From: Actinomycetota bacterium
Lineage (GTDB): Bacteria > Actinomycetota > Actinomycetes > Nanopelagicales > Nanopelagicaceae
Direction: 5' to 3'
Assembly (NCBI GenBank): GCA_010023045.1
Contig: RGJX01000006.1
Location: 1-49,592 of the forward strand
Length of the DNA: 49,592 nt
The notes below the pieces were generated by a model that was not told the DNA's origin, ran no database searches, and was given only the letters and a program-made list of their open reading frames with translations. Position 1 is the stretch's first letter. The number at the start of each line of letters is the position of its first letter. The position numbers and the translations under genes were made by a program. Shown piece after piece: positions 9,543 through 47,809 of this stretch.

Positions 9543-9643
9543 ATTCTCTATTCCCACCACGGCCACCAGAGAATGGATCTTCGATCGAAGCCCACGGCAA
9601 TCATCCGTAAGCCACCACCGAGGACCAGTCATCCGGCCCGTGG
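9543..9643 (-). ncRNA. Structured pnp leader, candidate actino-pnp motif
   Basis: The gap between rpsO and pnp is full of complementary segments. CCACGG (9592-9597) can pair with CCGTGG (9638-9643) around a GC-rich interior, CTTCGATCGAAG (9579-9590) is a perfect 12-bp palindrome, and ATTCTCT (9543-9549) pairs with AGAGAAT (9568-9574) just before the Shine-Dalgarno. A conserved RNA called actino-pnp is known in the 5' UTR of actinobacterial pnp genes, and location and density of pairing fit. I matched it by position and pairing only, not by a covariance model. Confidence 0.5.

Positions 9644-41244: not shown

Positions 41245-41248
<4 letters not shown>
40211..41248 (-). CDS. leuB: 3-isopropylmalate dehydrogenase
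   Basis: 345 residues. [83 protein letters not shown] and [24 protein letters not shown]-type motifs are intact, with [20 protein letters not shown] for the NAD site. It oxidises 3-isopropylmalate in leucine synthesis and may act on methylmalate from CimA too. ATGA overlap with serA shows coupling. Confidence 0.95.
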
Positions 41249-44172
<2,924 letters not shown>

Positions 44173-45912
44173 CTATAACTCCTGTGAATCCCAGTCCGGT
44201 GCCATTTCACGGGCAATCATGATGTCATCATTTGATGTTCCCGCGGCGACCATGGGCCAGACCATGGCATCGCGATGAACGCTAAAGTCAACAACTACCG
44301 GCGCATCATTAATCGCATTTGCTTCTTTAATAATCTTGTCAACATCGCCCTTTGATTCACATAGAAGGCCAACGCAACCCATCGCTTCCGCAAGTTTTGC
44401 AAAGTCAGGTACGCGCTTTGAATTCAAATCAGTATTTGAATATCTACCTTGATAAAAGAGAGTCTGCCATTGGCGAACCATTCCAAGAGATTCGTTATTG
44501 ATAATCGCTACCTTGATTGGAATATTGTTGAGCGCGCAAGTTACAAGTTCTTGATTGGTCATCTGGAAACAACCATCGCCATCAATCGCCCAGACCGGAG
44601 TATCTGGAAGACCAACTTTTGCACCCATGGCAGCTGGAACTGCATAGCCCATAGTTCCTAATCCACCGGAGTTGAGCCAGGTTCTTGGTTTCTCATACTT
44701 GATAAATTGAGAAGCCCACATCTGGTGTTGACCAACACCGGCAACATAGACCGCATCAGGCCCGGTGATTTGGCCAATTCGCTCGATTACATATTGCGGT
44801 GAGAGCGATCCATCACTCGGTTCGTTGTAACCAAGAGGATAAGTAGAGCGAAGTGAATTCATCTGGCGCCACCAGGTAGTTAAATCTGGCTTATTCTTTT
44901 TGAACTCTGTTTCTACAGCTGGAATTAACGCTCGAATTGTTGGCCCCAGATCTCCAATAACAGGGACATCGGCATAGCGATTCTTACCAATCTCAGCTGG
45001 GTCAATATCTGCATGAATAATCTTCGCGTTTACAGCGAAGGTGCTTAGCTTTCCTGTTACTCGATCATCAAATCGCGCACCTAGAGTTATCAATAAATCA
45101 GCCTTTTGAAGCGCGGTTACAGCAGCAACGGTGCCATGCATGCCAGGCATTCCAAGGTGTTGTGGATGGCTATCCGGGAAAGCGCCTCGGGCCATCAAGG
45201 TTGTAACGACTGGTGCACCAACTACTTCAGCAAGCTTTAGTAAATCCTTAGCAGCATTTGCCTTGATTACTCCGCCACCGATGTAAAAGACTGGCTTTGA
45301 AGATTGGGCGATGAGGGATGCAGCATCTTTTATTGATTGTGAATTGGGTTCGAACTGTGGTCTATAACCGCGAAGTTCAGCGCGCTTTGGATAGCTAAAA
45401 GTTGTCATCTTTTGGAGCGCATCTTTAGCGATATCAACAAGAACCGGTCCAGGACGACCGGAGTTTGCGATGTAGAAAGCCTCTGAGATTGCACGTGGAA
45501 TATCTGCGGGATCAGTAATCAAATAATTATGTTTCGTTACTGGCATGGTGACGCCACGAATATCAGCTTCTTGGAAGGCATCAGTACCAATTGCTGGTGC
45601 TGGAACTTGGCCTGTGATTGCCACTATAGGAACCGAGTCCATATGCGCATCAGCTAGAGGTGTAACTAAGTTAGTTGCTCCCGGACCGGAGGTTGCGATA
45701 CACACTCCAGCCTTTCCAGTTACTTGGGCATAGCCGGTTGCAGCATGTCCGGCGCCTTGTTCATGGCGAACCAGAATATGTCGGATCTTTGAATCGTAGA
45801 TTGGATCGTAAGCAGGAAGAATTGCGCCGCCCGGGATACCGAACATCACTTCAACGCCGGCTTCTTCCAAAGCACGCACGAGTGATTGTGCTCCAGTTAT
45901 CTCGTTACTCAT
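44173..45912 (-). CDS. ilvB: Acetolactate synthase large subunit
   Basis: 579 residues, complete. [32 protein letters not shown] with the catalytic Glu, FAD-binding middle domain, and the thiamine diphosphate motif [20 protein letters not shown]. It joins two pyruvates, or pyruvate and 2-oxobutyrate. ATG with AAGGAG at ideal spacing. Expression is probably controlled by the attenuator 40-140 bases upstream. The last codons SQEL are followed by TAG, which may itself be created by the ilvN deletion junction. Confidence 0.97.
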
Positions 45913-45954
45913 CTTCCGCTCCTTTCCGTTACTAGTAAATATCCCTATTAATGC

Positions 45955-45977
45955 AAAAACCCTCAGTTTCCTGAGGG
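45955..45977 (-). terminator. Attenuator terminator of the ilvB leader
   Basis: On the minus strand CCCTCAG-GAAA-CTGAGGG is followed at once by TTTTTGC: a 7-bp perfect stem with a GNRA-type loop and a U-run. It is a textbook intrinsic terminator placed between the leader peptide and ilvB, 42 bases before the ilvB start, so it would stop transcription before the gene unless prevented. Confidence 0.85.
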
Positions 45978-45978
45978 T

Positions 45979-46007
45979 GCGCGTGATCTTTAAGTTAGAT
46001 CACGCGC
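45979..46007 (-). promoter_or_regulatory. Upstream hairpin of the ilvB attenuator
   Basis: GCGCGTGATCT (45979-45989) and AGATCACGCGC (45997-46007) form a perfect 11-bp stem with a 7-base loop. Its 5' RNA arm overlaps the last codons and stop of the leader peptide, so a ribosome finishing the peptide would block it. It adjoins the terminator with one base between and could extend one pair to the base of it. The exact antiterminator pairing is not resolved by eye. Confidence 0.65.
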
Positions 46008-46050
46008 AACGAATCACCACCACTGATGAAGAGAAGGTGTTCGTTGACAT
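46000..46050 (-). CDS. Branched-chain amino acid leader peptide (16 residues)
   Basis: ATG 46050 to TGA 46000 encodes MSTNTFSSSVVVIRCA. Three valine codons (GTG GTG GTG) and one isoleucine codon stand in a row just before the hairpin, the hallmark of ribosome-mediated ilv attenuation. When charged tRNA-Val and tRNA-Ile are scarce the ribosome would stall here and alter folding downstream. The ATG is 7 bases after a -10 box, so the peptide is probably read from a leaderless transcript. Too short for ordinary gene callers. Confidence 0.8.
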   Translation of the reverse strand: MSTNTFSSSVVVIRCA

Positions 46051-46057
46051 GCGGTGA

Positions 46058-46087
46058 ATTATTCCGTCACTAAATGGGGGTAGTCAA
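46058..46087 (-). promoter_or_regulatory. ilvB operon promoter
   Basis: On the minus strand TTGACT (46082-46087) and AATAAT (46058-46063) are separated by 18 bases, close matches to the housekeeping -35 and -10 boxes. Transcription would begin at or next to the A of the leader-peptide ATG at 46050. This is the clearest promoter in the window. Confidence 0.75.
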
Positions 46088-46090
46088 CCC

Positions 46091-46108
46091 CTGAGATGCG
46101 CATCTCAG
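46091..46108. promoter_or_regulatory. 18-bp perfect palindrome upstream of the ilvB promoter
   Basis: CTGAGATGCGCATCTCAG is a perfect 18-bp palindrome centred 14 bases upstream of the -35 box and about 22-40 bases after the ilvD stop. No U-run follows on either strand, so it is a poor terminator. Its position suits an activator or repressor operator; Lrp/AsnC, LysR or the XRE protein of the same locus are possible binders. Confidence 0.5.
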
Positions 46109-46129: not shown

Positions 46130-47809
46130 CTAGTCGCAAACCGCCCCGCGGGAGGCCGAACCAACCAATTTCACATACTTCGAAAGGACTCCATAGGTGT
46201 ACCTAGGAGGTAGCGGCTTGAAACTCTTGCGCCGTTCCTCGAGTTCTCTCGCATCTACCAACAAATCTAATGTGCGAGCTTTTACATCAATTCGAATTCG
46301 ATCACCATTTCTAACTAACGCAATCGGTCCACCATCGACAGCTTCAGGCGAAACATGTCCGACGCAAAGTCCAGTAGTTCCACCCGAGAATCTTCCATCA
46401 GTAATCAACAAGACAGATTTTCCAAGGCCGGCGCCCTTAATCGCGCCAGTAATCATCAACATCTCACGCATGCCTGGGCCGCCCTTTGGACCTTCATATC
46501 GGATGACTACAACATCGCCTGCGTTGATTGTTCCATCTTCGAGTGCATCCATTGCGCCTTGTTCTCTATCAAAGACTCGGGCTGGACCTTCAAAGACATC
46601 TACACCAACTCCAGCAACTTTTGTTACAGCGCCTTCTGGAACAAGCGAACCACCCAAAATTGTAATTCCACCACTTGTGGCAAGAGGAGATGAGACCGCT
46701 TTGAGAATCTGGCCATCGGGATCAGGTGGTGCAATCTCTTTTAGATTTTCTGCCATCGTCTTTCCAGTGACAGTCATGCAATCGCCATGAATTAATCCAG
46801 CGTCAAGGAGCGCCTTTAGAACTACCGGAACTCCACCGATTTTGTCGACATCGTTCATCACGTATTTTCCAAAAGGTTTTAGATCGCCAAGAAGTGGAAC
46901 TTTCGAACCTACGCGATGGAAATCATCCATACTTAGATCAACTCGAGCTTCATGAGCGATTGCTAGTAGATGAAGTACCGCGTTAGTGGATCCACCTAAA
47001 GCCATGAGAATTGTTATCGCATTCTCAAAAGCTTGTTTTGTGAGTATGTCACGGGTTCGAATTCCTTGACGAATCAAATTCACCACAGCAGCGCCCGATG
47101 CAATCGCATAAGCATCTCTTCTTCGATCTATGGACGGAGGTGCGGCGGAGCCGGGCAAGGATAGGCCGAGCGCTTCACCAATCGATGCCATCGTATTTGC
47201 GGTGTACATGCCGCCACAGGCGCCTTCACCGGGGCAGATAGCGCGTTCAATTTTGTCCACTTCTTCTTGGGAGATTAATCCACGTGCACATGCACCGACC
47301 GCTTCAAAAGCATCAATGATGGTGACATCTCGACCATCCACTTTTCCGGGCATTATGGAACCGGCATAAACAAATACTGAGGCCACATTAATCCGAGCTG
47401 CGGCCATCATCATTCCCGGAAGAGATTTATCGCACCCAGCGAAAGTAACCATGCCATCTAAGCGCTCAGCTTCCATCACAGTTTCCACCGAATCGGCAAT
47501 GACTTCGCGCGAGACGAGCGAGAAGTGCATCCCTTCATGGCCCATGGAAATCCCATCAGAAATAGAGATGGTTCCAAACTGCATCGGGAATCCGCCGGCT
47601 TCAATTACGCCCTTCTTAGAAGCTTTAGCTAGGCGATCAAGTGAGAGATTGCAAGGAGTAACTTCATTCCAAGAGGATGCAATTCCTATTTGTGGTTTCT
47701 CCCAATCGGCATCAGTCATGCCAACGGCACGGAGCATTCCGCGAGCAGGTGCTCGCTCTAAACCATCTGTTACGAGATAAGACCGTGGCTTCATCGGGTT
47801 CTTACTCAT
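46130..47809 (-). CDS. ilvD: Dihydroxy-acid dehydratase
   Basis: 559 residues of IlvD/Edd. Iron-sulfur cysteines lie in [14 protein letters not shown] and [13 protein letters not shown]-like and [17 protein letters not shown] segments; [16 protein letters not shown] and [20 protein letters not shown] are at the C-terminal part. It dehydrates dihydroxy-isovalerate and dihydroxy-methylvalerate. It starts 4 bases after gatB, an unusual partner, and ends upstream of the ilvB promoter region. Confidence 0.96.

Follow-up and report, generated by a model that had tools for sequence, protein, structure and literature searches.

The ilvB-ilvN-ilvC-serA operon of a Candidatus Nanopelagicaceae bacterium, which lies on the minus strand of the 49,592-nucleotide stretch of DNA analyzed here (the window), is very likely governed by a leaderless, ribosome-mediated transcription attenuator that senses Val- and Ile-tRNA and uses a conserved hairpin, hairpin A, as its antiterminator, as predicted from sequence. 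The window is contig C67 of a 1.19 Mb genome in 121 contigs. The closest IlvB among named genomes comes from Candidatus Nanopelagicales/Nanopelagicaceae, and the identities of IlvD, IlvB, IlvC, and SerA were checked with NCBIfam.

Leaderless leader-peptide attenuation of ilvB is an already known actinobacterial device. Our literature search returned no relevant report, among its top-ranked matches, of leader-peptide attenuation in Nanopelagicales, and the present case extends it to these streamlined freshwater actinobacteria. Nor did we find a description of a class-wide arrangement in which antiterminator and terminator stand end to end with two fixed distances.

Organization of the ilvB leader

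All parts of the attenuator lie between the ilvD stop codon at 46130 and the ilvB ATG at 45912, and, apart from the strandless palindrome, all are read on the minus strand. The series begins with the 18-bp palindrome CTGAGATGCGCATCTCAG (46091..46108; core TGAGAT-N4-ATCTCA, 46092-46107), located 4 nt upstream of the -35 box TTGACT (46082..46087), which is separated by an 18-nt spacer from the -10 box AATAAT (46058..46063). Seven nucleotides further on starts the leader gene ilvL (46000..46050; ATG 46050-46048, TGA 46002-46000), whose 16 codons encode MSTNTFSSSVVVIRCA and which is predicted to be leaderless, with its ATG at +1. The putative regulatory codons are GTG GTG GTG for Val10-Val11-Val12 (46015..46023), directly followed by ATT for Ile13 (46012-46014). 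Hairpin A, the proposed antiterminator (45979..46007), is an 11-bp stem, GCGCGTGATCT-N7-AGATCACGCGC, with the stop codon in its 5' arm, and 0-1 nt separates it from the intrinsic terminator (45955..45978), which comprises the stem CCCTCAG-GAAA-CTGAGGG (45977-45960), a possible extra A45978-U pair, and a U-run (45959-45955). A Shine-Dalgarno sequence, AAAGGAG (45919..45925), then precedes the regulated gene, ilvB (44173..45912), which encodes the large subunit of acetolactate synthase, with ilvC and serA further downstream.

This order of palindrome, promoter, ATG, peptide, hairpin, terminator, and ilvB agrees base by base with the original prediction. Two points had escaped it: the design is of a known actinobacterial type, and the palindrome is probably the operator of a separate regulator of branched-chain amino acids.

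Several further features were observed around the leader. The serA gene (phosphoglycerate dehydrogenase, 41245-42864) comes after ilvC, with whose end it overlaps, and serine synthesis may thus be subject to the ilvB attenuator as well. The motif GCATTA(G/A)T(G/A)GG, right after the U-run (45954-45944), is conserved genus-wide and partly beyond. In one relative (L006, genome G003), a short unit, AAAGGCGATACCAGAAA, is repeated several times in tandem in the stretch from the terminator to the ilvB ATG. The leader region gave no Rfam match at E <= 1, the sole Rfam match in the window being an Actino-pnp RNA at 9573-9629 (minus strand, 59.4 bits).

Conservation in the family and the class

All 29 relatives fetched first have the same parts in the same order upstream of ilvB, the exceptions being L014, whose promoter is masked, and L022, whose leader begins with GTG, and the arrangement recurs in three further relatives of the family comparison. 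The class-wide sample comprised 20 further genomes of other families and 76 named genomes, most of which have the device. An automatic scan of the named Actinomycetes, which gave preference to start codons lying at the expected distance from a -35 box, recovered the same ordered parts in 65 of 76, the other 11 not being parsed automatically. This shared order argues that the arrangement in the window is not due to chance. In the genomes that have it, branched-chain amino acid (BCAA) motifs such as LVVL, ILVL, and VVVI are followed by a hairpin at the stop codon and then by a terminator, and the peptides range from 12 to 29 residues in the family comparison and down to 9 in the named set. The ilvB attenuator with a Val-Val-Val-Ile leader, as originally proposed, is therefore supported, the Val/Ile codons and the two stems being preserved in relatives.

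Four metagenome-assembled records titled Bifidobacterium breve (L112, L117, L119, and L128) have IlvB proteins 72-79% identical to that of the window. L112 also carries an ilvB leader of the Nanopelagicaceae type, and the species names of all four look wrong.

A start codon tied to the promoter

In the family, the distance from the -35 box to the start codon is 35-37 nt whatever the length of the peptide, and class-wide it is 35-38 nt. A parse unbiased by distance placed the start 35-37 nt past the first T of TTGAC in all family members but two, L023 and L028, both of which have a second in-frame ATG at 35. A distance that stays fixed while the peptide varies in length ties the start to the promoter rather than to the regulatory codons and places the start codon at the promoter's +1. 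This spacing is the geometry of a leaderless mRNA, and a leaderless start is accordingly what we predict for the window. In the family leaders, no Shine-Dalgarno sequence precedes the leader ATG (best core match 0-3 nt), whereas that of ilvB is clear (4-6 nt). The homologous leader of Streptomyces lividans, MRTRILVLGKRVG, is leaderless by RNA-seq (PMC8079986).

The same observations make it very unlikely that the transcript begins upstream, at another promoter or by readthrough from ilvD, in which case the leader would not be leaderless and the palindrome would be part of the RNA. The end of ilvD lies about 22 nt upstream of the palindrome, which would allow readthrough, but the fixed distance from -35 box to ATG, the leader ATG without a Shine-Dalgarno sequence, and the leaderless S. 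lividans homologue all speak against it, as does the occurrence of the palindrome between leuC and ltbR in one relative (G027), as expected of a DNA operator.

As for codon usage, GTG accounts for 15% of the 182 Val codons in ilvD, ilvB, ilvC, and serA, less than any other Val codon, but for 105 of the 161 Val codons in the family leaders.

Hairpin A and the terminator

In the window, hairpin A and the terminator together fold at -34.4 kcal/mol, compared with -13.1 +/- 2.9 for shuffled sequences (z -7.4). Covariation of the leader, one of the checks suggested with the original prediction, was assessed in an alignment of 22 leaders, in which hairpin A exceeded both shuffled and slid controls: 20 double-changed cells against 7.3 by shuffling, a covariation score of 0.266 against 0.149, and 90.9% of cells paired against 21-55% in the slid controls.

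Two distances are narrowly held across 104 distinct leaders of Actinomycetes. In unconstrained minimum-energy folds, hairpin A is separated from the terminator by 0 nt in 82 leaders, 1 in 16, 2 in 4, and 3 in 2; the earlier remark that the two stems adjoin rather than exclude each other is thus true class-wide, 98 of the 104 leaders having a gap of 0-1 nt, and the stems seldom have bases in common. Measured from its first nucleotide, the last Val, Ile, or Leu codon lies 7-8 nt before the base of hairpin A in 64 leaders and 4-10 nt in 98, and three of the outliers stem from how the BCAA codon run is defined. The stop codon, by contrast, wanders from 13 nt inside hairpin A to 5 nt upstream of it, which suggests that the spacing of codon to hairpin and of hairpin to terminator is under constraint, unlike the position of the stop. 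Hairpin A itself spans 23-69 nt. Its apparent loss in L078 arose because the stop codon sits in the loop; with a longer segment folded, this leader has a 12-bp hairpin A and a gap of 0.

A control set of other terminators from the window and the loci was dropped as too noisy, consisting mostly of weak intragenic stems. A separate, genus-specific 5' stem, P0 (46008..46045, minus strand; nt 6-43, within the leader ORF), abuts hairpin A and ends directly before it in 20 genus members. It shows one compensated pair, in which Thr/Ala codon 3 (ACG/GCG) pairs with a synonymous Arg codon (CGT/CGC), with one G-U intermediate; its shuffle z-scores are only -1.5 to -2.4, and it is possibly comparable to H1 of Corynebacterium glutamicum.

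When the 3' arm of the terminator was withheld, at most one of the seven leading bases of its 5' arm could pair upstream in the window at any Val/Ile stall, so that in this genome the stems do not compete for bases, and no base-paired antiterminator involving the terminator 5' arm was found in the window. The folding of alternative structures, likewise suggested at the outset, had hairpin A and the terminator co-folding without a gap in free RNA; as the two are compatible there, thermodynamics alone provides no switch. A pairing of the Val codons with the 3' arm of hairpin A was considered and rejected, the short GUGA/UCAC match seen by eye being far weaker than hairpin A.

These results make mutual exclusion of the enteric type, with the antiterminator capturing part of the terminator stem through an overlap of about 3 nt, as proposed for H2/H3 of C. 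glutamicum, a somewhat unlikely mechanism. Such an overlap is favored in C. glutamicum by mutations at the shared GCC (PMC11857589), and in a few members of the class 2-6 bases of the terminator 5' arm can find partners upstream, so that competition by overlap may operate there. Against it stand the 0-1 pairable base in the window, the same count in 29 of 49 leaders, the gapless co-folding, and the fact that the 3' arm of hairpin A adjoins the terminator 5' arm, which makes a 2:3 pairing between them impossible.

Proposed mechanism

The direction of the switch in the attenuator we favor is inferred from the homologues of Mycobacterium tuberculosis and C. glutamicum, and a response to BCAA supply through leader codons is likewise known from homologues. 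Transcription would begin with the A of the leader ATG, the 5' end then being loaded with a ribosome. With charged Val- and Ile-tRNA ample, it would pass the GTG GTG GTG ATT run and, once Arg14 is in the A site, cover the 5' arm of hairpin A, whereupon the terminator would form and the operon would be off. With these tRNAs short, the ribosome would be held at the Val codons, still 10-16 nt short of hairpin A, which could then form, letting RNA polymerase read through and turning the operon on. Stepping a model ribosome that covers 12 nt from the first base of the A-site codon along the window leader left hairpin A at -18.4 kcal/mol when the A site held the codon for Val10 or Val11, at -14.3 for Val12, -4.6 for Ile13, and 0 from Arg14 to the stop, while the terminator (-15.8 kcal/mol) was never blocked by the ribosome at any step.

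If starvation switches the operon on, as in the homologues, hairpin A must hinder the terminator, and since it cannot do so by pairing, we infer that it blocks the terminator base sterically. Within the RNA exit channel or beside it, hairpin A would take up the room required by the terminator stem at its base, and a helix fused to the 5' base of the terminator might not be accommodated beside the hybrid as the last terminator pairs close. On this model, switching should depend strongly on the spacer that separates the two stems. Its extension to the Actinomycetes as a whole, in which an abutting antiterminator would block closure of the terminator base in the polymerase without base-pair competition and two rulers (about 7-8 nt from codon to hairpin, 0-1 nt from hairpin to terminator) would set the decision, is put forward tentatively, with a chance that we place a little short of even. 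Should abutment be enough for antitermination, attenuators whose stems do not overlap may have been missed elsewhere, because searches usually demand mutually exclusive helices.

Hairpin A could instead be a pause or anti-antiterminator hairpin that synchronizes polymerase and ribosome, with termination set mainly by the closeness of the ribosome, a role we regard as unlikely. The 3' end of the hairpin falls about 11-12 nt upstream of where the terminator loop ends, a place at which a pause could aid leaderless loading, and H1 of C. glutamicum is named an antiantiterminator in PMC11857589. The tight codon-hairpin and hairpin-terminator spacing, however, is more in keeping with a switch than with a timer, and no second antiterminator can be seen. 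In short leaders of 9 residues, such as MSTTFVVVI, hardly any RNA remains free upstream of the ribosome.

The palindrome and LtbR/NdgR

The core TGAGAT-N4-ATCTCA stands beside the -35 box in nearly all Nanopelagicaceae, at 4 nt in most relatives, and most genomes have 1-2 exact copies of the palindrome. The operator scans were confined to exact matches because one-mismatch scans gave 5-10 sites per genome, near background in several genomes. The extra copies that were fetched are intragenic, with one exception: in G027, a copy is placed between leuC and the divergent gene for an orthologue of the IclR-type regulator LtbR/NdgR. In nearly all relatives, the leuC-regulator intergenic region carries TCTCA-N5-TGAGATG and a degenerate second half, 2-4 mismatches from the ilvB form, and an ltbR orthologue is divergent from leuC, the one at G000:C78:43930-44646 included. 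In Streptomyces coelicolor, NdgR binds at ilvB, ilvD, leuB, and its own leuC intergenic region (PMC4340878). The copy and variants between leuC and ltbR, together with this binding at ilvB, make an LtbR operator the most likely reading of the palindrome in the family; from its sequence and context, it is probably the operator of an LtbR/NdgR protein in Nanopelagicaceae.

The ltbR gene itself looks leaderless, with a -10-like CATTAT about 7 nt before its GTG or ATG, inside the putative operator (L054, at G000:C78:43930-44646, and the leuC-ltbR intergenic regions L046-L074).

It is quite unlikely that physiological control rests with the operator and its regulator, the leader being a weak attenuator or the relic of one. 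Conservation of the operator is strong and ilvB is bound by NdgR in S. coelicolor, but two Nanopelagicaceae genomes, L026 and L043, are without the operator and keep the full attenuator, and the attenuator extends across the class, far beyond the family to which this operator form is limited.

Comparison with known systems

The leader in the window has two features of the actinobacterial leaderless ilvB attenuators, a short ORF rich in Val/Ile/Leu codons upstream of ilvB and an intrinsic terminator. With ilvL of S. lividans and S. coelicolor (MRTRILVLGKRVG, ilvBHC), which is leaderless as is predicted for the window, it shares a BCAA-rich short ORF, several hairpins, and a U-tract before ilvB; that leader is also present in G054 and several Streptomyces, with a gap of 0-1 between hairpin A and terminator. 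The Streptomyces leader differs in its longer hairpin A, in having Ile-Leu-Val-Leu in place of Val-Val-Val-Ile, and in that no TGAGAT-N4-ATCTCA operator was seen there. Swapping candidate ilvB leader codons in S. coelicolor was reportedly without effect, as cited in PMC1262725, which counts against the attenuator reading that we prefer. In M. tuberculosis, changing LVVI to AAAA abolishes induction (PMC13236596). The ilvB1NC leader of that species likewise combines a BCAA uORF with a model of antiterminator versus terminator, but it has another sequence and a longer leader region, and its published exclusion is by mutually exclusive folds.

The ilvBNC leader of C. glutamicum, or ilvB-II motif, is comparable: its leader MTIIRLVVVTARRLP is leaderless, its Val codons have been tested by mutation, and its terminator is proven (PMC11857589 and PMC10272879). 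Mutations of Val codons and of the start codon matter there, as cited in PMC11857589. It differs in that antiterminator and terminator share about 3 nt and H1 is separate. The RNA of Corynebacterium ulcerans folds with a 10-nt gap rather than abutting stems, and the Corynebacterium ilvB-II P1/P2 consensus with its overlapping antiterminator was not found in the window, as judged from the folds, the upstream pairing, and the Rfam search. The enteric attenuators (trp, his, ilvGMEDA) use a shared strand and exclusion by pairing, whereas the stems here abut with 0-1 shared base.

The LtbR/NdgR regulon (leuCD, leuB, and ilvB) resembles the present case in the leuC-divergent orthologue and in ilvB being a direct NdgR target in S. 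coelicolor. It differs in the site, which at ilvB is TGAGAT-N4-ATCTCA, the published NdgR/LtbR consensus KTYCRSMWYSYGRRM not being found there.

The candidates of Seliverstov et al. (2005; PMC1262725) occupy the same genomic place and have BCAA codons and a terminator, but that survey identified no antiterminator, called the mode of attenuation unclear, and covered only Corynebacterium, Mycobacterium, and Streptomyces. To it, our comparison adds a candidate for the missing antiterminator and two exact spacing rules, which make the unclear mode of actinobacterial ilvB attenuation testable by spacer insertion.
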